Origin: Burkholderia sp. Bp8992
GTDB lineage: Bacteria > Pseudomonadota > Gammaproteobacteria > Burkholderiales > Burkholderiaceae
Assembly (NCBI RefSeq): GCF_003853705.1
Contig: NZ_QTQI01000018.1
Span: 113,869 to 177,868, forward strand
Direction of reading: 5' to 3'
Length of the DNA: 64,000 nt
This document shows, in pieces, positions 47,728-58,261 of this stretch; the stretch's first letter is position 1, and the number at the start of each line of letters is the position of its first letter. Position numbers and translations under genes: made by a program. Below the pieces are notes generated by a model. That model was given only the letters and a program-made list of their open reading frames with translations. It made no database searches and had not been told where the DNA came from.

Positions 47728-48657
47728 TTACGCGGGCGGCAGCTTCGCGCGGTCGGCTGCCGGGTCGGCCGCGCTCGACAGGATGCCTTGTTGGACCAGC
47801 CAGTCGAACATCTGCTCGACGATCGGCGAGCGCGACGGGCCTTCCAGCCGCGACAGCCACCACGTGGTGCCGGGCAGGCGCGGGTAGTCGGCGAGTACGG
47901 TCAGTGTGTGCTGGTCGAGGCCGGCCTGTGCGACGAGACGCGGCAGGCACGCGATGCCGCGTCCGCGCTGCACGGCGTCCAGTACGAGCCGCTGATCGTC
48001 GTAGATCGCCTGCATCCGGAAGTCCGACAGCTGCTCGCGAAAGACGGTCGCCATGCGCTCGTCGGTCAGGCTCGTCTCGAGGCAGACGAGCCCCGTGTGC
48101 TGCGCGTGTTCGGCGCGCGGCACGCGGGCGAGCGTCTCGGCCACCGGCGTCGCGCACACCGTCACCCATTCGTCGCGCATGAACGGGATGTCGACCAGGC
48201 CGGGCTGCAGCATCGGTCGCGTACCGATCGTCATGTCGACGTCGATCTCGTCGACGTAGCGCGCGGTTTCGTCGGTCGACAGCAGTGGGCACAGGTCCGG
48301 CAGCACCTGCTGCAATTGCTCGAGGCGCGGCTGCAGCCAGCCGTGCAGCAACGGCGCTGGGCAGACCAGCACGACAAGCCCCGGGTTCAGGTAGGTCGCG
48401 ATGCGGTCGAGCCCGCCGCGCAACGTGTCCATCGCGCGCTGCACGCTGCGATGCAGGACCTCGCCGGCGATGGTCAGCTCGACGCCGCGGCCGCGCCGGC
48501 GGAACAGCGGCTGCCCGAGTTGCGCTTCAAGCTGCTGGATCTGATGGCTGATCGCCGATTGCGACAGGTGCAACTCGTCGGCCGCACGCGAGAAATTGCC
48601 CAGTCGGGCCGCGGCTTCGAAGCCGGTCAACAGTTTCAGGGACGGAACGCGTCGCAT
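47728..48657 (-). CDS. LysR-family regulator next to the agmatine genes
   Basis: A 309-residue LysR regulator of the GcvA-like branch: start RRVPSLKLLTGFEAAARLGN, then FSRAADELHLSQSAISHQIQ. The effector domain (95-300) includes RYVDEIDVDMTIGTRPMLQP and VQRGRGIACLPRLVAQ. It is divergent from aguA with 101 bases between starts, so it probably controls the agmatine operon, likely sensing agmatine or N-carbamoylputrescine. I chose the ATG at 48657; a TTG at 48690 would add 11 residues and run into the operator. Confidence 0.9.
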   Translation of the reverse strand: MRRVPSLKLLTGFEAAARLGNFSRAADELHLSQSAISHQIQQLEAQLGQPLFRRRGRGVELTIAGEVLHRSVQRAMDTLRGGLDRIATYLNPGLVVLVCPAPLLHGWLQPRLEQLQQVLPDLCPLLSTDETARYVDEIDVDMTIGTRPMLQPGLVDIPFMRDEWVTVCATPVAETLARVPRAEHAQHTGLVCLETSLTDERMATVFREQLSDFRMQAIYDDQRLVLDAVQRGRGIACLPRLVAQAGLDQHTLTVLADYPRLPGTTWWLSRLEGPSRSPIVEQMFDWLVQQGILSSAADPAADRAKLPPA

Positions 48658-48692
48658 CGAGATATGAGGTGAATTGATTGATTCGGCCAATA

Positions 48693-48704
48693 AATATCAA
48701 TATT
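48693..48704. promoter_or_regulatory. Palindrome between the LysR gene and aguA
   Basis: AATAT-CA-ATATT, in an AT-rich patch 54 bases before aguA. LysR sites are often short AT-rich inverted repeats of the T-N11-A type, so this is a candidate operator. Confidence 0.45.
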
Positions 48705-48758
48705 CATCAAGTTTAGCCTGACGGACAATCGCTCATCAATCACAACGGAGTCGGATCG

Positions 48759-49796
48759 ATGGGTCGCTTTGATGCTCGCCAGCGCGGTTACCGGATGCCC
48801 GCCGAATGGGAAGCCTCGCATGCCACGTGGCTCGGATGGCCGGTTCTCGACAACCGCGAGGACCTGTGGGGGACGCATTACGCGCAGGTGTGCCGCGAGT
48901 TCGCGCTGGTCGCGCGGACCATCGCGCGCTACCAGCGCTGCGTGGTCGCGGTGCACCACAGCCAGGCCGATACCGCGCGCGAGCTGGTGGGTCCGAGCGT
49001 CGACGTGCTGCCGGTCGCGGCCGAGGACAACTGGCTGCGCGACTGCGGGCCGATCTTCCTCGTGAGCGAGCAGCGCGGGCTCGGCGCGGCCGTATTCCGT
49101 TTCAACTGCTGGGGCGAGAAGTACCAGCCGTACGACGGCTGCCAGCAGGCCGGGCAGGACATCGCGCGTGCGGCCGGCGCCGAGATCTTCAATTCGCACA
49201 TGGTGCTGGAGGGCGGCTCGTTCTACGTCGACGGGCAGGGCACGCTGGTCACGACCGAGAGCTGCCTGCTGCATCCCAATCGCAACCCGCATCTGAGCCG
49301 TGTGGAGATCGAGGCGGAACTGCGCCGGATGCTGGGTGTGGAGAAGATCGTATGGCTGCCGGGCAACCCCGACGAAGTGGAGACGAACGGGCACGTGGAC
49401 GGCATCGCGTCGTTCATCGCGCAGGGCCGGATGCTGTGCCAGACCGCCGTGCCCGAGCAGGGCGACTATTTCCGCGTGATGCGCGAGAATCGCCGCGCGC
49501 TGGAGCTCGCGACCGATGCGGCGGGGCGCCGTTTCGAGCTGCTCGACCTGCCGTCGCCGATCGTCAGCGAACGCTTCGGTTCCGAGCGCTACTGCGATTG
49601 CTATGCGAACTACATCCTGGTGAACGGCGCGGTGATCGTGACTGCGTTCGGCGTCGAGCAGGACGAGGCCGCACGCGACGCGTTCAGCCGCGCGTTCCCG
49701 GAGCGCAAGGTGGAGATGTTGCCGATTCCGACGCTGTCGATCGGCGGCGGTAGCATCCACTGTTCGACGCAGCAGCAGCCTTTCGTCGCGCACTGA
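48759..49796 (+). CDS. aguA: Agmatine deiminase AguA (cytoplasmic)
   Basis: Hydrolyses agmatine to N-carbamoylputrescine and ammonia. The 345-residue protein has the guanidine-modifying fold with D95 (NWLRDCGP), H212 and D214 (NGHVDG), and the nucleophile C335 in GGGSIHCSTQQQP. It has no signal peptide, so it acts in the cytoplasm, and it is similar in length to plant and Pseudomonas AguA (about 370). It is the first of five genes: aguA, aguB, a PotF-like protein and two exported deiminase paralogues. The aguB start is 45 bases on. Confidence 0.94.
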   Translation: MGRFDARQRGYRMPAEWEASHATWLGWPVLDNREDLWGTHYAQVCREFALVARTIARYQRCVVAVHHSQADTARELVGPSVDVLPVAAEDNWLRDCGPIFLVSEQRGLGAAVFRFNCWGEKYQPYDGCQQAGQDIARAAGAEIFNSHMVLEGGSFYVDGQGTLVTTESCLLHPNRNPHLSRVEIEAELRRMLGVEKIVWLPGNPDEVETNGHVDGIASFIAQGRMLCQTAVPEQGDYFRVMRENRRALELATDAAGRRFELLDLPSPIVSERFGSERYCDCYANYILVNGAVIVTAFGVEQDEAARDAFSRAFPERKVEMLPIPTLSIGGGSIHCSTQQQPFVAH

Positions 49797-49841
49797 GCGA
49801 CGTTCCGTCAGCCGTTTCCGGTCTCACCGAGGAGCAACGCA

Positions 49842-50756
49842 ATGCCGTCCAAACACATCACCGTCGCTGCCGTGCAGATGGCGTCGGGCAGCTGGAACTT
49901 CGAAGACAACATGGCCACCGCGGAGCGCTTGATCCGCGCGGCCGCCGCACAGGGCGCGAATCTCGTGCTGTGCCCAGAGTTGTTCGCGATGCCGTATTTC
50001 TGCGTCGACCAGAACGTGCGCCACCTCGAACTCGCGCAGCCGTTCGAAGGCAATGCGCAGATCGCCCGGTTCGCGGCGCTGGCCGGCGAGCTCGGCATCG
50101 TGCTGCCGATCGGCTTCTTCGAGCGCGCGGGAAATGCCGCGTACAACTCGATCGCGGTGGCGGATGCCGACGGGCGCGTGCTTGGCGTCTATCGCAAGAC
50201 GCATATCCCGGACGGGCCGGGCTATACGGAGAAGTTCTATTTCACGCCGGGCGACACCGGCTTCAAGGTGTGGGACACGCGTTTCGGCCGAATCGGCATC
50301 GGCATCTGCTGGGACCAGTGGTATCCGGAGACGGCGCGCAGCCTCGCGCTGATGGGCGCCGAGATCCTGTGCTTTCCGACCATCATCGGTTCGGAGCCGT
50401 TCAGCAGCGAGTTCGATTCGGCCGGCCACTGGCAGCGCACGATGCAGGGCCACGCGGCGGCCAACATGGTGCCGGTCGTCGCAGCCAACCGGATCGGCCG
50501 CGAAACGGGCTTCGGCAACGGCAATCCGCGGCAGCAGGGGCTCACCGGCGTGTTCTACGGGTCGAGCTTCATCGCGGATCACACCGGCGAGAAGCGGGCC
50601 GAGGCGAACCGCACCGACGAAGCCGTGCTCGTGCAGACGTTCGACCTCGACGCGATCCGCGCCGACCGGCAGTCGTGGGGCTTCTTCCGCGATCGCCGCC
50701 CCGAGATGTATCGCACGTTGTTGACCAGCGACGGCATGTCGTCCTGCTATCGATAA
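49842..50756 (+). CDS. aguB: N-carbamoylputrescine amidohydrolase AguB
   Basis: A nitrilase-superfamily enzyme that converts N-carbamoylputrescine to putrescine, CO2 and ammonia. The 304-residue protein has the catalytic triad E46 (LCPELF), K119 (YRKTHIPDGPGY) and C156 (GICWDQWYPE). The motif EKFYFTPGDTGFKVWDTRFG is typical of AguB. A GAGGAG ribosome site precedes the ATG. It directly follows aguA and is nine bases before the PotF-like gene, so all are one transcript. It has no export signal, so this last step is cytoplasmic. Confidence 0.95.
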   Translation: MPSKHITVAAVQMASGSWNFEDNMATAERLIRAAAAQGANLVLCPELFAMPYFCVDQNVRHLELAQPFEGNAQIARFAALAGELGIVLPIGFFERAGNAAYNSIAVADADGRVLGVYRKTHIPDGPGYTEKFYFTPGDTGFKVWDTRFGRIGIGICWDQWYPETARSLALMGAEILCFPTIIGSEPFSSEFDSAGHWQRTMQGHAAANMVPVVAANRIGRETGFGNGNPRQQGLTGVFYGSSFIADHTGEKRAEANRTDEAVLVQTFDLDAIRADRQSWGFFRDRRPEMYRTLLTSDGMSSCYR

Positions 50757-50765
50757 GGACTCGAA

Positions 50766-51878
50766 ATGAAACGAAAAGGATGGCTGCGTGTCGCGGCGCC
50801 GGGTCTCGCACTGTGCATGCTGGCCGGTGCGGCCCGCGCCGATGAAGAGAAGGTGTTGAACCTGTACAACTGGAGCAACTACTTCGCGCCGGATACGATT
50901 TCCGCCTTCGAGAAGGAAACCGGCATCAAGGTGCGCTACGACGCGTACGACAGCGACGAGACGTTGCAGTCGAAGCTGCTGACCGGCAACAGCGGCTACG
51001 ACCTCGTGTGGCCGACCAACGACTTCATGGCCAGGCAGATCCAGGCCGGCGTGTATCGCAAGCTCGACAAGGGCCGGCTGCCTAACCTGAAGTATCTCGA
51101 CCCGTCGCTGCTGAAGCAGATGGCGCAGTCCGATCCCGGCAACCAGTATGGCGTGCCGTACATGTGGGGCACCGTGGGCGTCGGCTACGACCGCGCTAAG
51201 GTGAGCGCGATCCTCGGCAAGGACATGCCGGCCAACAGCCTCGACCTGCTGTTCAACCCGGCGATCGCGGCGCGCGTCGCCGCAAAATGCGGGCTGGGCC
51301 TGCAGGACTCCGCGAGCACGGTGCTGCCGCTAGCGTTGCGCTACGTCGGCCGCGATCCGATGCATCCGTCCGCGCAGGATTACGCGGCCGCGCACGCGAT
51401 GCTGATGAAGGTCCGGCCGTTCATCCGCCAGTTCGTCGGGTCGTCCGACGCCAACGAGCTGATCGAAGGCGAGCTGTGCGTGACAGTCGGCTTCTCCGGC
51501 GCGATCAATCTGGCCGCGCTGAAGGCGAAGGCGCGCGATCCGAAGCGCAGCATCGTGTACGACATCCCGCGCATCGGCAGCCTGATGTGGTTCGACGCGA
51601 TGTTGATTCTGGCGTCGGCGAAGCATCCGGACAACGCGCATGCGTTCATCAACTACATCCTGCGTCCGGACGTGACCGCGAAGATCTCGAACTCGACGCG
51701 CTACGCGAATGCGAACCAGGGTGCGTTGAAGCTGATGGACCCGGCGCTGGTGCGCGATCCGGGCGTCTATCCGGACGAGGCGACCCGACGCACACTGTTC
51801 ACGCCGATCGCCGAATCCCCGGCTGCGATGCGCCTGGAAGGCCGGACCTGGCTCGGCTTCAAGACCGCGCGGCCGTGA
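50766..51878 (+). CDS. PotF-like polyamine-binding protein, altered pocket
   Basis: A 370-residue periplasmic binding protein with a signal peptide (cleavage after GAARA). It follows PotF/SpuD closely: LNLYNWSNYFAPDTISAFEK and GVPYMWGTVGVGYD. By recalled alignment to E. coli PotF, D278 is kept (D277 here), but D247 is Ala (A246), D39 is Asn (N38), W244 is Phe (F243) and the acidic pair near 184-185 is Ser-Thr. Those acids hold one end of putrescine. A ligand with one neutral end, such as N-carbamoylputrescine, would fit better; this is inference. No permease or ATPase is encoded nearby. It lies nine bases after aguB. Confidence 0.88.
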   Translation: MKRKGWLRVAAPGLALCMLAGAARADEEKVLNLYNWSNYFAPDTISAFEKETGIKVRYDAYDSDETLQSKLLTGNSGYDLVWPTNDFMARQIQAGVYRKLDKGRLPNLKYLDPSLLKQMAQSDPGNQYGVPYMWGTVGVGYDRAKVSAILGKDMPANSLDLLFNPAIAARVAAKCGLGLQDSASTVLPLALRYVGRDPMHPSAQDYAAAHAMLMKVRPFIRQFVGSSDANELIEGELCVTVGFSGAINLAALKAKARDPKRSIVYDIPRIGSLMWFDAMLILASAKHPDNAHAFINYILRPDVTAKISNSTRYANANQGALKLMDPALVRDPGVYPDEATRRTLFTPIAESPAAMRLEGRTWLGFKTARP

Positions 51879-51928
51879 TGACACACCACGAAACCATTGA
51901 AGTAACCGGCAAGCGAAAGAGGGATGCC

Positions 51929-53041
51929 ATGACCACACGACGTCAACTGTTGAAACGCGGCCTGTCCGTCTCGGGCGCGGCGCTGGCCGCCAGCGCGATG
52001 GGCGGGTTGTTCGGCCGCGCCGCGCATGCGCAGCAGGGTGCCGCCTGGCACATGCCGGACGAAGGCGCACCGCACACCGCGACCTGGATGGCGTTCGGCC
52101 CGAGCGAGGACATCTGGGGCGCTCGCCTGTTGCCGGTGGTGCGCGAGAACCTCGCGGCCGTCGCGAAGGCAATTGCCGCGCACGAACCGCTGAAGATGCT
52201 GGTGCGGGAGCAGGACTACGCGCTCGCATCGCGGCTGTGCGGCTCGTCGGTCGAACTCGTCCAGCATCCGGTCGACGATCTGTGGATGCGTGACACGGGG
52301 CCCGTGTTCGTGAAGAACGCGTCGGGCCGGCTCGGTGGCGTGAGCTTCAATTTCAACGGCTGGGGCAACAAGCAGGAACACGATCAGGACGCGGAAGTCG
52401 CGCCGTTCGTGGCCGAACGCGCCGGCGCGCGGCTGATCGACACGAAGCTCGTGCTGGAAGGCGGCGGCATCGAGGTGGACGGCGAAGGCACGGCGATCGT
52501 CACGCGCAGTTGCGTGCTCAATGCGAACCGCAATCCGGGCGTCAGCCAGGCGCAGTGCGAGGCCGAACTGAGCCGCCTGCTCGGGCTGAAGAAGATCATC
52601 TGGCTGCCCGGCATCGCGGGCAAGGACATTACCGACGGGCATACCGACTTCTACGCGCGATTTACGAGCCCGGGCGTCGTGGTGGCCGGGCTCGACACCG
52701 ATCCGTCGTCGTACGATCACGCGGTGACGCGGCAGCATCTGGAGATCCTGCGGAAGTCCACCGACGCGAAGGGGCGCCCGTTGAAGGTCGTCGTGCTGCC
52801 GGGGCCGAAGACCGTCCGGCACATCTACGAGAACGCGGAGTTCGCGGCCGGCTACATCAACTTCTACGTGTGCAATCGCGCGGTGATCGCGCCGCAATTC
52901 GGCGACAGCCGCGCCGACCGCAATACGCGCGACACGCTCGTCGACCTGTTCCCCGGCCGCGAAGTCATCCAGCTGAACATCGACGGCATCGCCGCGGGCG
53001 GCGGCGGCATCCACTGCACCACGCAACAGCAGCCGGCCTGA
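51929..53041 (+). CDS. Exported agmatine deiminase paralogue (Tat signal)
   Basis: A 370-residue member of the agmatine/peptidylarginine deiminase family with a twin-arginine signal: TTRRQLLKRGLSVSGAALAA, cleavage after AHA. The mature enzyme keeps WMRDTGPVF (Asp), H238 and D240 (DGHTDFYARF), and C363 in GGGGIHCTTQQQP, so it should be active. The Tat route suggests folding before export. It lies 50 bases after the PotF-like gene. It is about as similar to AguA as to the next paralogue. Agmatine is the likely substrate, but peptidyl-arginine cannot be excluded. Confidence 0.9.
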   Translation: MTTRRQLLKRGLSVSGAALAASAMGGLFGRAAHAQQGAAWHMPDEGAPHTATWMAFGPSEDIWGARLLPVVRENLAAVAKAIAAHEPLKMLVREQDYALASRLCGSSVELVQHPVDDLWMRDTGPVFVKNASGRLGGVSFNFNGWGNKQEHDQDAEVAPFVAERAGARLIDTKLVLEGGGIEVDGEGTAIVTRSCVLNANRNPGVSQAQCEAELSRLLGLKKIIWLPGIAGKDITDGHTDFYARFTSPGVVVAGLDTDPSSYDHAVTRQHLEILRKSTDAKGRPLKVVVLPGPKTVRHIYENAEFAAGYINFYVCNRAVIAPQFGDSRADRNTRDTLVDLFPGREVIQLNIDGIAAGGGGIHCTTQQQPA

Positions 53042-53190
53042 GAACGGCCGCGGGCCGGTTCGCGTGACCGGTCCGCATGCTGCTTCAAATTTCCAGTCTT
53101 TCCGGACTACTGAAAACAATGCGGAGTCCGTCCCGCGGGACGGAAGTCGGCGCGCGCGTGCGCGCCGTCCGCGCAATGGAGTTGAAATAC

Positions 53191-54705
53191 ATGACGAAGA
53201 AAGATACTCACGCGAGCCCGAACAAGCGCGAGCCGAACCTGCCGGATGCGCGCCGACGCGGATTCATTCGCTGTTCGGCGGCGTGGCTCGGCATGCCGCT
53301 GCTGGGCAGCCTGGCCGCGTGCGGTGGCGGCGACAGCGGCAGCGGCGTGTCCGACGCGGCTTCCGCGTCGCGCCCGACGCCGTCGGCACGGCAGGCCGTG
53401 TACCGGCTGCCGGCTGAAGATACGCCGCACGCGTTGACCTACATGACCTTCGCGTCCGGCGCGGACGGCATCTGGGCGCCCGTCACGTCACAGAGCACGG
53501 ACGCCGGCATCGACCGCGTGCGGGCCGACCTGATGGACGTCGCGAAGGCGATCGGCGCGACCGAACCCGTCAACATGCTGGTGTTGCCGGTCGATCTGGA
53601 CGCGGCCCGTGTGCTGCTCGGGAACGCAAGCGTGGCGAATCCCGACCTGCATGCACGTTATGCGGCGCGCGCCGCAGGCACGGGCGGGATCACTCTCGTG
53701 CCGCTCGCCGACGGCTTCAACGATTTCTGGGTGCGCGACACGGGTTGCGTGTTCGTCAGGGATACGACGAACGGCAATGCGCTGAACGCGATCGGCTTCA
53801 ACTTCAACGGCTGGGGCAACGCGAACACCGACGGCGCCGGCCAGAGTGCGGGAGTGATTCCGCCGGCGCTTCTGGCCGCGAGCAACCGGTCGAAAGCGGG
53901 CAAGTTCTTCCAGGCGTTCAGCCAGGACAGCAGGGTGGCGGGCTGGATGGCGCAAACCAAAGGCGCGAACCTGATCCGCAGCACATTGACGCTCGAAGGC
54001 GGCGCGATCGAATTCGACGGCGACGGGACGGCGATCCTCACCGAATCGTCGGTGCTGCACGTGAACCGCAATCCGCAGTTGTTCGACATCCCGAACGGCG
54101 TGATCGCCAATGCGACGCTGCGGCCGACGGCCCGCGATACCGTGCTGGCCGAACTGCAGCGCACGCTCGGGGTGCGGAAGATCATCTGGTTGCCGGGCAC
54201 GGCGACGTTTCCGCGCGGCAGCGGCGTCGGTGGCGCGGGCGGTGCGTCGACGCCGGCCGGCGAAAGCGACATCACGAACGGCCACGTCGATTTCTACGCG
54301 CGCTTTCTCGCACCCGGCGTGGTCGCGTGCTGCTACGACGCGTCGAATTCGACCGGCGAACGCGCATTGACAGACGCCAACCGGCAACGCCTGGCCGGCC
54401 AGACCGATGCGAACGACCGGCCGCTGAAGATCGTCGAGCTCGTGCCGCCGGTCAACTACGGCACGTCGGCGGGCACGACGCTGAACGAGCGGCAGATGTC
54501 GCATTTCGCAGCCGGCTACATCAACTTCTATACGTGCAACGGCGCGATCGTCATGCCGAAGTTCAACGACGCGGCGGCCGACGCGGCCGCGGTCGCAGCG
54601 ATCCAGCCGTATGCGGCGAACCGCGCGATCGTGCAGGTCGACATCCTCGGCATCGCGTCGGGCGGTGGCGGCATCCACTGTGCGACCCGGGAAGTGCCGG
54701 CGTGA
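53191..54705 (+). CDS. Exported deiminase paralogue, predicted Tat lipoprotein
   Basis: A 504-residue third paralogue, larger than the others. Its N-terminus has an RR motif (ARRRGFIRCSAAWLG) and a lipobox LAAC followed by GGGDSGSG, so it should be lipid-anchored after Tat-like export. The catalytic set is complete: WVRDTGCVF, H365 and D367 (NGHVDFYARF), C497 in GGGGIHCATREVP. Inserts lie around 215-255 and 330-360 (Gly/Ala-rich). The usual TQQQP after the cysteine is TREVP, which may change substrate choice. The ATG at 53191 follows GGAG. It is 149 bases after the second paralogue and ends the cluster at a strong terminator. Confidence 0.88.
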   Translation: MTKKDTHASPNKREPNLPDARRRGFIRCSAAWLGMPLLGSLAACGGGDSGSGVSDAASASRPTPSARQAVYRLPAEDTPHALTYMTFASGADGIWAPVTSQSTDAGIDRVRADLMDVAKAIGATEPVNMLVLPVDLDAARVLLGNASVANPDLHARYAARAAGTGGITLVPLADGFNDFWVRDTGCVFVRDTTNGNALNAIGFNFNGWGNANTDGAGQSAGVIPPALLAASNRSKAGKFFQAFSQDSRVAGWMAQTKGANLIRSTLTLEGGAIEFDGDGTAILTESSVLHVNRNPQLFDIPNGVIANATLRPTARDTVLAELQRTLGVRKIIWLPGTATFPRGSGVGGAGGASTPAGESDITNGHVDFYARFLAPGVVACCYDASNSTGERALTDANRQRLAGQTDANDRPLKIVELVPPVNYGTSAGTTLNERQMSHFAAGYINFYTCNGAIVMPKFNDAAADAAAVAAIQPYAANRAIVQVDILGIASGGGGIHCATREVPA

Positions 54706-54809
54706 GCGCGTCCTGTCATATCGATATGGAAATCGATTCGTTGTCCGTCGCACGCGAATTCCTTAATCTGGGCCTGTAGTTCGTGTGACACCTCCTTGAC
54801 TGGGATTCG

Positions 54810-54840
54810 CGCCCGCTGCATGCAGCGGGCGTCTTTTTTT
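54810..54840 (+). terminator. Terminator of the agmatine cluster
   Basis: A perfect ten-base inverted repeat, GCCCGCTGCA / TGCAGCGGGC, extended by a C-G pair, then TC and a run of seven T. It lies 104 bases after the last deiminase gene. Confidence 0.9.
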
Positions 54841-54982: not shown

Positions 54983-55675
54983 ATGAGCAAACCCGCGATC
55001 GTGCTCGTGCACGGCTTCTGGGGCGGCGCCGCGCACTGGGCAAAGGTAATCGTCGAACTCGCGCGCAAGGGCCAACCATCGCTGCACGCGGTCGAGATAC
55101 CGCTGACGTCGCTTGCCGACGACGCCGAGCGCACGCGCAAGATGGTGGCGCAGCAGGCCGGCCCCGTGTTGCTGGTCGGCCATTCGTACGGCGGTGCCGT
55201 GATCAGCGATGCCGGCAACCTGCCGAATGTCGCGGGCCTCGTGTTCATCGCCGCGTTCGCGCCCGACGCGGGCGAAAGCCCCGGCGGGATCACGCAGGAA
55301 CACTTGCCGGCGGCGGCGCCGAATCTCGCGCCCGACAGCGACGGCTATCTGTGGCTCAAGCCCGACAAATTCCACGAGAGCTTCTGCCAGGATCTTTCGT
55401 CAGACGAAGCGCTCGTGATGGCCGTCACGCAGAAGGCGCCGCTGGCGAGCACGTTCGCGGACACCATCAGCACGCCTGCATGGCGTTCGAAACCGTCGTG
55501 GTATCAGATTTCGAGCGAGGACCGGATGATCGCGCCGGAGAACCAGCAGCGGATGTCGGCACGAATGGACGCGCGCAAGATCATCACGCTCGATGCCAGC
55601 CATGCGTCGCTTGCGTCGCAGCCGGTGGCGGTCGCCGCGCTGATCGACGAGGCCGCGACGGTGCTCGCAGGGTAA
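54983..55675 (+). CDS. Alpha/beta-fold hydrolase (HNL/EstC-like)
   Basis: A 230-residue cytoplasmic alpha/beta hydrolase. The oxyanion loop reads LVHGFWGGAAHW, the nucleophile elbow GHSYGG has S68, and the catalytic His is in LDASHASLASQP near the end. This subfamily (salicylate esterase, hydroxynitrile lyase and EstC-like) acts on small esters. An AAGGAG ribosome site precedes the ATG at 54983. It is preceded by the terminator of the agmatine cluster and followed by an unrelated transporter, so it is a single-gene unit. The substrate is unknown. Confidence 0.9.
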   Translation: MSKPAIVLVHGFWGGAAHWAKVIVELARKGQPSLHAVEIPLTSLADDAERTRKMVAQQAGPVLLVGHSYGGAVISDAGNLPNVAGLVFIAAFAPDAGESPGGITQEHLPAAAPNLAPDSDGYLWLKPDKFHESFCQDLSSDEALVMAVTQKAPLASTFADTISTPAWRSKPSWYQISSEDRMIAPENQQRMSARMDARKIITLDASHASLASQPVAVAALIDEAATVLAG

Positions 55676-55900
55676 GGCGCGGGAAGCGGGGCATGGCGGG
55701 AAAGGCACGGCGCGATGCTGCGCCGGTGCCCGCCGCGCCTCATCACGAAACCCGCAGAGCAAAGCACCATTTGTTGGTTCTGATTCGCCGCACGCGCTGA
55801 TACGTTAGCGGCTTCGCGACGGCACACTTCGTCGCGATGTTCTTCGAACCGGGCCGCCGCGCGATCCGCGGCGGCCTTCATAACAAATCAGGTCGTGCTC

Positions 55901-56716
55901 ATGAAATTCCACACTCTCGCTACGTGGCTCGTCGGGGCCGCGCTCATCACCGCAGGCACCGTCGCGCATGCGGACCGGCTCGACGACATCAAGAAGGCCG
56001 GCGTGCTGCGCGTCGCGACGTTCGACAGCAACCCGCCGTTCGGCTATGTCGATGCGAAGAACAACCACATCGTCGGCCTCGACGTCGACTACGCGAAGGC
56101 GCTTGCCGACAAGCTCGGCGTGAAGCTGCAACTGCAACCGACCAATCCCGCGAACCGCATTCCGTTCCTGACGTCGGGCAAGGTCGACCTCGTGCTCGCG
56201 AACTTCACGATCACCGACGAGCGTGCGAAGCAGGTCGACTTCAGCATTCCGTATTTCTCGTCGGGCCAGCAGTTTCTCGCGAAGAAGGGTGTGCTGAAAT
56301 CGGCCGACCAGCTGAACGGGCTGCGCGTCGGCGCAGACAAGGGCACGACCAACGAGATCACGCTGCGCGAGAAATTCCCGAAGGCGACGATCGTCGCGTA
56401 CGACGACACGCCGTTCGCGTTCGCCGCGCTGCGCGCCGGCAACGTGCAGGCGATCACGCAGGACGGCCCGAAGCTGATCGGCCTGCTCGCGAACGTGCCG
56501 GACAAGCAGAACTACGAGATCCCGGCGTTCACGATCTCGAACGACTACATGGGCGTCGGCGTGCCGAAGGGCGAGACGCGCCTGCTCGGCTTCGTCAACG
56601 ACACGCTGAAGGGCCTCGAGGCGAACGGCCGCGCCACGCAGATCTACGACGCATGGTTCGGGCCGACGACGAAGACGCCGCTCACGCGCATCTTCCGCAT
56701 CGGCGACAAGACCTGA
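55901..56716 (+). CDS. Polar amino-acid ABC transporter binding protein
   Basis: A 271-residue periplasmic receptor (family 3). The signal peptide is MKFHTLATWLVGAALITAGT..., cleaved after AHA. The mature part shows DIKKAGVLRVATFDSNPPFG, LDVDYAKALADKLGVKLQLQ and VLANFTITDERAKQVDFSIP, all typical of receptors for glutamate, glutamine or cystine. The ATG at 55901 is favoured over a GTG at 55895. Two permeases follow, but no ATPase gene does. Confidence 0.92.
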   Translation: MKFHTLATWLVGAALITAGTVAHADRLDDIKKAGVLRVATFDSNPPFGYVDAKNNHIVGLDVDYAKALADKLGVKLQLQPTNPANRIPFLTSGKVDLVLANFTITDERAKQVDFSIPYFSSGQQFLAKKGVLKSADQLNGLRVGADKGTTNEITLREKFPKATIVAYDDTPFAFAALRAGNVQAITQDGPKLIGLLANVPDKQNYEIPAFTISNDYMGVGVPKGETRLLGFVNDTLKGLEANGRATQIYDAWFGPTTKTPLTRIFRIGDKT

Positions 56717-56810
56717 CCTGCACCGCACGCGCGCCGCGACCGGCCGGAACATCGGCTGCGCGGCGCTTTCCGTTTTCTTCCGATCGCGTGCTTCACGCGC
56801 GCACCCCAGC

Positions 56811-57533
56811 ATGCTCGGGTTGGCTCCCAAATATCTGTCCTGGCTCTGGCAGGGCTTCCTGCTGACACTCGGCCTTGCCGCCGCGGCAGCCATCGCCGCG
56901 ACCGTCGGCGGGCTGCTGCTTGCCGTCATGCGGCATGCGCGCGGCAGGACACCGCGCGCGGCCGCCGCCGCGTACGTCGTCGCGTTCCGCAACACGCCGC
57001 TGCTCGTACAGTTGCTGTTCTGGTATTTCGGCGTCGCGTCGTTGCTGCCCGACACGTGGATCGCGTGGCTGAATGCGCGCCATGCCGTGAGTGCAGGCCC
57101 GGTCACGCTCGCGTGGCCGTCGTTCGAATTCGTCGCCGGCTGGGTCGGATTGAGCGCATACACGGCCGCGTTCGTCGCCGAGGAATGCGAGGCCGGCCTG
57201 CGCGGCGTGCGTCGCGCGCAGCATGACGCGGCGGCGGCGCTCGGCCTCACGCCGATGCAGTCGCTGCGCTACGTGGTGCTGCCGCAGGCCGTGCGGATCG
57301 CGCTGCCGCCGCTGTTCGGCCAGTACATGAATCTCGTGAAGAACTCGTCGCTCGCGATGGCGATCGGCGTCGCCGAGCTGTCGTATGCATCGCGGCAGGT
57401 CGAGACCGAGACGTTCAAGACGTTCGCCGCATTCGGCGTCGCGACCTTGCTGTACGTCGCGGCGGTGGCCGCGATCGAGGCCGGTGCGTACGCGGCCACG
57501 CAATGGCGCGACCGGCTCGGAGCAGGGCGCTGA
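56811..57533 (+). CDS. Polar amino-acid ABC permease, subunit 1
   Basis: A 240-residue inner-membrane permease of the HisM/GlnP family. It shows the start LSWLWQGFLLTLGLAAAAAI, the motif AFRNTPLLVQLLFWYFG and the EAA loop DAAAALGLTPMQSLRYVVLP QAVRI, split here for length. It has four to five helices. It starts 94 bases after the binding protein and ends two bases before the next permease start, so translation of the pair is probably coupled. Together they would form a heterodimeric pore. Confidence 0.92.
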   Translation: MLGLAPKYLSWLWQGFLLTLGLAAAAAIAATVGGLLLAVMRHARGRTPRAAAAAYVVAFRNTPLLVQLLFWYFGVASLLPDTWIAWLNARHAVSAGPVTLAWPSFEFVAGWVGLSAYTAAFVAEECEAGLRGVRRAQHDAAAALGLTPMQSLRYVVLPQAVRIALPPLFGQYMNLVKNSSLAMAIGVAELSYASRQVETETFKTFAAFGVATLLYVAAVAAIEAGAYAATQWRDRLGAGR

Positions 57534-57535
57534 CG

Positions 57536-58261
57536 ATGGACCTTTCGCTGCTGTTCTCCAATCTGCCGTACCTGCTCGTCGGCGCGTTCCCGGACGGCCC
57601 GCTCGGCGGCGCCGCGCTGTCGCTGGTGCTGGCGATTGCGTCCGCCGTCGCGTCGGCCGTGCTCGGCGTGGCGCTCGGTGTCGCGATGGCGCTCGCACGC
57701 GGGCCGGTGCGCGTGCTGCTGCTCGCGTTCATCGGCTTCTTTCGCGCGATTCCGGTGCTGATGCTGATCTTCTGGACGTATTTCCTGATGCCCGTGCTGC
57801 TGCACATGGATGTGCCGGGACTCGCGACGGTCGTGTGCGCGCTCGCGCTGATCGGCGGCGCGTATCTCGCGCATGCAGTGCACGCGGGCATCGTCGCGGC
57901 GGGCGACGGGCAGTGGCAGGCCGGGCTGTCGCTCGGGCTCACGCGCTGGCAGACGGTGCGCTACGTGCTGCTGCCGCAGGCGATCCGGATCATGACGCCG
58001 TCGTTCGTCAACCAGTGGGTCGCGCTCGTGAAGGACACGTCGCTAGCGTATATCGTCGGCGTGCCCGAGCTGTCGTTCGTCGCGACGCAGGTGAACAACC
58101 GGCTGATGGTGTATCCGGCGCCGATCTTCCTGTTCGTCGCCGTGATCTACCTGGTGCTGTGCACGTCGCTCGACGGCGCGGCGCGCTGGCTGCTGACGCG
58201 GCGCCCGAGGGAGCGGAGCATTGAGGGCACGGCGGTCGAACGGATCAAATCCTTGCGATGA
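57536..58261 (+). CDS. Polar amino-acid ABC permease, subunit 2
   Basis: A 241-residue permease of the same family as the gene before it, with FRAIPVLMLIFWTYF in place of the RNTP motif and the EAA loop GLSLGLTRWQTVRYVLLPQA. After it come SFVNQWVALVKDTSLAYIVG and a C-terminal helix. The start at 57536 is two bases after the previous stop. No ATP-binding gene follows; DNA downstream is AT-rich and gene-free to 58613, so the ATPase must be shared or encoded elsewhere. Confidence 0.92.
   Translation: MDLSLLFSNLPYLLVGAFPDGPLGGAALSLVLAIASAVASAVLGVALGVAMALARGPVRVLLLAFIGFFRAIPVLMLIFWTYFLMPVLLHMDVPGLATVVCALALIGGAYLAHAVHAGIVAAGDGQWQAGLSLGLTRWQTVRYVLLPQAIRIMTPSFVNQWVALVKDTSLAYIVGVPELSFVATQVNNRLMVYPAPIFLFVAVIYLVLCTSLDGAARWLLTRRPRERSIEGTAVERIKSLR

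Follow-up and report, generated by a model that had tools for sequence, protein, structure and literature searches.

What is gained by encoding three putative agmatine deiminases in one apparent operon, two of them with signals for export? The question is raised by a locus of Burkholderia sp. Bp8992 lying within a stretch of 64,000 nucleotides (contig NZ_QTQI01000018.1, positions 113,869 to 177,868), which we refer to as the window. The whole unit, from a divergent LysR-type regulator gene on the minus strand to the last deiminase gene, spans 47728–54705, and its five other genes lie on the plus strand, encoding a cytoplasmic deiminase (A), AguB, a PotF-like periplasmic binding protein (C) and two further deiminases (A' and A'') with signals of the twin-arginine translocation (Tat) type. 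We propose, at a probability of roughly 0.45, that this is an agmatine operon of the agu2ABCA' type with a third, probably envelope-anchored deiminase, and that agmatine is deiminated outside the cytoplasm, with C and AguB taking the product. The gene content and order, the export signals, the intact catalytic residues and a conservation with dN/dS well below 1 are established as properties of the sequences.

In the proposed pathway A', soluble in the periplasm, and A'', lipid-anchored and perhaps in the outer membrane, would convert external agmatine to N-carbamoylputrescine. C, with a pocket that seems unsuited to a diamine, would bind this intermediate and deliver it to a polyamine ABC (ATP-binding cassette) permease encoded elsewhere, and AguB would then release putrescine inside the cell. 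Agmatine entering whole would be acted upon by A, and the LysR protein would control the unit. If true, this would be a polyamine route whose steps are split across envelope and cytoplasm, served by a binding protein adapted to the intermediate, and it would bear on the handling of agmatine, a host and plant metabolite, by plant and lung bacteria.

A preliminary description of this DNA had named an AguA-type A, AguB, a PotF-like C, a Tat-type A' and a Tat-type lipoprotein A'' on one strand, and coordinates, profile scores and signal motifs bear this out. A (48759–49796), A' (51929–53041) and A'' (53191–54705) score 332, 364.6 and 237 bits respectively against PAD_porph (PF04371; cut-off 25 bits), and each of them retains the catalytic Asp, His-x-Asp and Cys, as that description had also stated; by family score and catalytic residues together they belong to this family. 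These residues are shared with the plant and Enterococcus agmatine iminohydrolases (3H7C, 6NIB, 2JER), and a Glu-Gly-Gly is also visible in the window deiminases. AguB (49842–50756) scores 466.2 bits against the N-carbamoylputrescine amidase equivalog TIGR03381 (cut-off 410.25), and C (50766–51878) scores 95.7 bits against SBP_bac_8. By Pfam, AguB is a carbon-nitrogen hydrolase, and C matches several solute-binding families, SBP_bac_8 among them. The A-AguB, AguB-C, C-A' and A'-A'' gaps are 45, 9, 50 and 149 bases; the listed open reading frame of A' opens further upstream than its Tat-type start, the ATG at 51929. Family and reaction of AguB are shared with the canonical aguBA system, from which the window differs in that its deiminases all fall below the cut-off of 381.8 bits for the AguA equivalog TIGR03380 (A 282, A' 270, A'' 158 bits), whereas the AguA of genome G532 reaches 563.6. 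However, Pseudomonas aeruginosa Agu2A (303 bits) and Agu2A' (246 bits) also fall below it, so this failure does not separate the window enzymes from those of the agu2 type. We know of no canonical aguBA cluster with exported enzymes.

The N-terminus of A' reads MTTRRQLLKRG, followed by a hydrophobic stretch and AHA-QQ, and that of A'' has RRGFIR, a hydrophobic stretch and the lipobox LAAC followed by Gly; A is signal-free. To extend the comparison beyond the window we assigned distinct proteins to A, A' and A'' sets by best match (n=19, 41 and 32 respectively). The motif RRx[FLIVM][LIVMFY] is found in 38 of the 41 A' proteins, 30 of the 32 A'' proteins and none of the 19 A proteins, the A'-set exceptions being the cytoplasmic P. 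aeruginosa Agu2A, a Heliophilum protein and an A' read without its start (L072). A lipobox is present in 30/32 of the A'' set and 1/41 of the A' set and in none of the A set, and the residue following the A'' lipobox Cys is Gly in 28 and Leu in 2 of the 30. Gly at this position usually denotes an outer membrane location. With its twin-arginine motif and lipobox Cys, A'' has the features of a Tat lipoprotein and is probably anchored in the cell envelope. It exceeds A' by 134 residues, and its catalytic residues are kept across two genera (alignment of 17). A twin-arginine motif together with a lipobox-like Cys also occurs in A'-type deiminases of a Tsukamurella plasmid (L090, 5914–7020) and of a Burkholderiaceae genome (L095, 5725–6864), and lipid anchoring may therefore have arisen more than once.

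The A-B-C-A' core beside a divergent LysR is already known, and A'' is the addition. The agu2ABCA' operon of P. aeruginosa is described in the accessible parts of PMC4287709 and PMC4211729, and on plasmid NZ_CP131792 it has the same order, LysR-A-aguB-SBP-A', with LysR divergent. The window shares with it the order A-B-C-A' on one strand and the predicted Tat-type signal on A', but has A'', whereas no A'' lies beside the plasmid genes. Williams et al. reportedly found in 2010 that Agu2A' of P. aeruginosa PA14 is exported by Tat. Our literature searches, made largely outside subscription journals, brought up no account of this operon with a third deiminase, and those on Tat or on N-carbamoylputrescine uptake found nothing on this pathway.

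The binding protein offers a clue to what the cell might take up. In the available text of PMC8666671, S38, D39 and D247 of PotF grip one amine, and at the opposite end stand S85, S87, A182, E185, D278 and L348; the key residues are given likewise in the part of PMC3223731 at hand. According to the former, conservation across 250 PotF homologues reaches 96% or more for each of D247, D278, E185 and D39, and binding of putrescine or spermidine by PotF_Prox (S38T, D39E, D247S) is undetectable. The PotF row that we compared is an engineered variant whose four acids are wild-type according to the same text. Window C scores 350.5 bits against the PotF equivalog NF007962, below its cut-off of 636, and by PotF numbering has Asn39, Thr185, Ala247, Lys254 and Asp278, so that of the four acids of a PotF-type diamine binder (D39, E185, D247, D278) only the last remains. 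It shares its family and most of the aromatic box with Escherichia coli PotF and P. aeruginosa SpuE, but has lost E185 and D247.

This loss is not peculiar to the window. Across Burkholderia and Paraburkholderia, all 24 C proteins that could be read have Thr for E185 and Ala for D247 (one further fragment is unreadable), and W37, Y40, D278 and Y314 of PotF are kept in each. Position 39 is Asn in Burkholderia (His in one) and Asp in Paraburkholderia (Glu in one), while two relocated clusters (L091 and L092) have Met, and the remnant L052 has Leu, at 185, with Ala at 247. Acids are kept at 39, 185, 247 and 278 in 5/5 copies of SBP2, a second PotF-like protein considered below, and in the binding proteins of P. 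aeruginosa and four genomes of family f15 (L088, L105, L108, L110, L111), so that Agu2C differs from window C in this respect. A plausible explanation is that the C pocket, having lost acids, accommodates a ligand that is charged at one end and neutral at the other, such as N-carbamoylputrescine.

The exported deiminases have a signature of their own. The plant enzyme AtAIH binds the free amine of agmatine with Asp220, as stated in the part of PMC6447857 available, and a literature search on Helicobacter pylori and Campylobacter jejuni enzyme structures found nothing beyond that paper. The residue aligned to Asp220 stands directly before T-x-x-H-x-D, and we will refer to it as the amine-clamp position; statements on loops and pockets of the deiminases rest on alignment. 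At this position E. faecalis has Glu, as does window A, and window A' and A'' have Ile, as they also do at the equivalent of AtAIH Asn35, near the clamp in the plant enzyme. Glu is found in 19/19 of the A set and Ile in 32/32 of the A'' set and 39/41 of the A' set, which includes P. aeruginosa Agu2A'; the two others are Agu2A, with Met where window A has Glu, and the Heliophilum protein, with His. Almost every exported protein has Ile or Val at the Asn35 equivalent, with Thr instead in L108 and Ala in L112.

To sample independently of similarity to A', we took PF04371 matches across 396 genomes of the phylum, at least 127 of which have a match, giving 148 unique proteins among the matches listed, with weak matches outside the sample. 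Signal calls were corrected by hand: L153 and L219 were removed for upstream in-frame sequence, and L110, L111, L117 and L122, with clear signals under the threshold, were added. Two rows without a readable motif, one cytoplasmic and one distant but seemingly exported (L253), were left out, and the motif pattern was widened once variants had appeared. Among the matches listed, Ile stands at the clamp in 19 of 19 readable exported proteins and in 0 of 127 others (Fisher 3e-24, a value that overstates independence because the rows are related). Within this sample the Ile signature separates the exported deiminases from the cytoplasmic ones, at a site open to mutational testing. A Sec (general secretory)-type exported deiminase (L252, 298–1311) that lies outside the main exported clade likewise has Ile before T-x-x-H-x-D. 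When 41 rows are placed in a maximum-likelihood tree (midpoint-rooted as drawn, long branches flagged), A', A'', Agu2A' and the Phyllobacterium and Tsukamurella proteins lie beyond one branch with 100/100 support, and A, Agu2A and the solved enzymes lie on its opposite side. A FastTree of 154 rows, again among the matches listed, unites 21 of the 22 exported proteins as a single clade with support 100.

This signature, together with the Ile or Val at the Asn35 site, could be taken to mean that the substrate of the exported clade is a different guanidino compound, such as arginine, an acylated agmatine or peptide arginine, the product being taken up or discarded. We consider this distinctly unlikely, as the Burkholderia genes adjoin AguB and the clamp is not always acidic even in cytoplasmic enzymes encoded beside aguB, being His in L123, L124, L125, L128 and L129 and Met in P. 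aeruginosa Agu2A. An acid at the clamp is then not essential, and the substrate cannot be read from this site alone; the stronger notion that Ile proves another substrate is weakened by the same residues.

If exported deiminases feed AguB, the two might be expected together. We searched 59 genomes picked for an exported-type deiminase (signals were read for part of the set, and G492 has a Sec-type protein only) with TIGR03381 at E <= 1e-60. AguB is present in 31 of these, 28 of them over the curated cut-off: 18/20 in Burkholderia, 4/5 in genus g20 and 9/9 in genera g63, g65, g67 and g86 (three under the cut-off), with 0/14 in genus g11 and 0/11 in the remaining genomes. The background is 50 of 219 genomes, which overlap with some of the 59. 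The 28 genomes lacking a match could have divergent or non-homologous hydrolases standing in for AguB, and a further N-carbamoylputrescine amidohydrolase is named in the part of PMC12283126 available.

These same 28 genomes would also suit exported deiminases that mainly remove or modify external agmatine as a signal or inhibitor, with the feeding of AguB secondary. So would pairs of LysR and A' without A, AguB or C in the fetched stretch (L095, L097, L098, L099) or nearby (L056 of G015), and so would the altered biofilm response to agmatine that agu2ABCA' confers according to the text available of PMC4211729. Nine genes neighbouring lone A' genes share no common theme in Pfam scans, with MFS, aminotransferase, BenE and asparaginase among them. 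On the other hand, both in Burkholderia and in P. aeruginosa these genes remain beside AguB and a binding protein, and agmatine was not removed by the B. cepacia isolates tested in the part of PMC4211729 seen; on balance we regard signal removal or modification as unlikely to be the main role.

Compared across Burkholderia genomes, as the preliminary description had suggested, the gene order recurs across species, so the arrangement is not due to chance. Strong A'' matches (at least 65% identity) occur in 19 of the 65 genomes of the genus, in 17 of which A'' immediately follows A'. The closest relatives of A'' are in Burkholderia, for example B. sp. D-99, B. arboris and B. cepacia. At E <= 1e-90 among 369 genomes of the class A'' is found in the nearest genome only, and two Rhizobium metagenome-assembled genomes (MAGs) have it at 55–56%. 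A second A'', at 70–72% identity, is present in three genomes, directly behind the gene for SBP2 and a DUF3138 beta-barrel gene in all three. Six Paraburkholderia loci (L035, L036, L037, L038, L041 and L100; five distinct, as L035 and L100 are seemingly one species) have the SBP2-DUF3138 pair upstream of LysR-A-B-C-A', and in these A'' is found before LysR, after A', or both. The module of SBP2, DUF3138 and second A'' occupies 4840–9503 in L033 and 4832–9461 in L036. In most Paraburkholderia loci seen, the module or its first two genes stand upstream of the agmatine operon. DUF3138 was rejected as a specific marker, as it is present in 59/65 genomes of the genus; being so common, it is informative solely by its position beside A'' or the cluster.

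Plain redundancy, in which the paralogues have overlapping agmatine deiminase activity with no division of labour and A'' is a lineage-specific duplicate, would account for the place of A'' within the exported clade alongside A', for its absence from three genomes with A', and for its higher ratio of nonsynonymous to synonymous substitution (dN/dS against six relatives 0.17–0.28, versus 0.05–0.19 for A'). Both ranges are well below 1, as purifying selection predicts. The retention of the A'' catalytic residues in two genera, of its signal in most members, and of its own module with SBP2 and DUF3138 argue against redundancy, which we consider improbable.

Other arrangements bring uptake genes and exported deiminases together. 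On a Phyllobacterium plasmid the order is A', ABC ATPase, two permeases, binding protein, aminotransferase, aguB, LysR (minus strand) and cytoplasmic deiminase, and in genomes of family f15 C and AguB immediately precede an A'-type gene (L105, L110, L111). Because of the C pocket, this plasmid with its importer, aminotransferase and aguB behind A', and the A'' modules with a beta-barrel, we favour the split pathway in Burkholderia; as a hypothesis for that genus it is fair and now better supported, but it does not hold generally for exported deiminases. A more specific version is tentative and somewhat doubtful, namely that the Burkholderia operon is a two-compartment pathway joining the signature-bearing deiminase clade to a C specialised for N-carbamoylputrescine, with the beta-barrel, SBP2 and lipid-anchored deiminase of Paraburkholderia acting as an entry gate.

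A number of observations weigh against deimination outside the cytoplasm with uptake of the product, a pathway that the preliminary description had put forward and that the C pocket, the Phyllobacterium plasmid and the A'' module sustain in part. Its claim on exported deiminases in general is diminished by the 28/59 genomes with no AguB match at the threshold used, and the exported enzymes lack the acid that binds the agmatine amine in solved enzymes. Three genomes of the genus (G009, G015, G060) have A' and no A'', and in the stretch fetched for Paraburkholderia L040 the cluster and A'' are present but SBP2 and DUF3138 are not. No ABC permease gene is seen between LysR and A''. PotD also lacks D247, in the available text of PMC3223731, so the loss in C could mean another ligand. 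The B. cepacia isolates mentioned above, which may or may not carry the cluster, came from sputum and left agmatine in culture unchanged, being termed 'agmatine neutral' in the part of PMC4211729 seen. Finally, the envelope location of A' and A'' is predicted from their signal sequences.

The LysR protein is GcvA-like (47728–48690, minus strand; PF00126 83.9 bits, PF03466 77 bits), and its gene adjoins A in Burkholderia and Paraburkholderia loci and also, at 32% identity, in P. aeruginosa. The region between it and A (48691–48758), a presumed promoter or operator, is strongly conserved (across 14 loci, 68 of 132 columns are invariant, a count that takes in some terminal coding bases), and its conserved blocks in Burkholderia include ATATCAATATTCATCAAGTTTA. 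A'' is likely co-transcribed with the upstream genes: on the plus strand no terminator-like site is found between genes of the unit, and one, a hairpin of 10 pairs with a T tail (54809–54832), lies 3' of A''. Counting both strands there are 3 such sites, where shuffles predict 4.3, and the hairpin alone is a weak sign; sigma-70-like promoters in the region number 0 against 0.9 expected. The A'-A'' gap (53042–53190, plus strand) is 148–153 bases in 16 of 17 Burkholderia genomes and 171 in the other, and 256–320 in four Paraburkholderia loci, with 53 of 178 columns invariant in 15 loci. These conserved blocks make separate control of A'', through a promoter or operator of its own, possible.

Operon remnants are also seen (L052, 3345–4396; L093, 5323–5654; L044), with the start of A fused to C in G054 and B and C broken in G060, and a Paraburkholderia symbiont MAG has several operon genes in pieces. 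In the window, 3' of the terminator-like site, an alpha/beta hydrolase gene (54983–55675) stands before a gene for an amino-acid type ABC binding protein (SBP_bac_3), which together with two following genes that resemble its permeases, judged from their translations, occupies 55895–58261.

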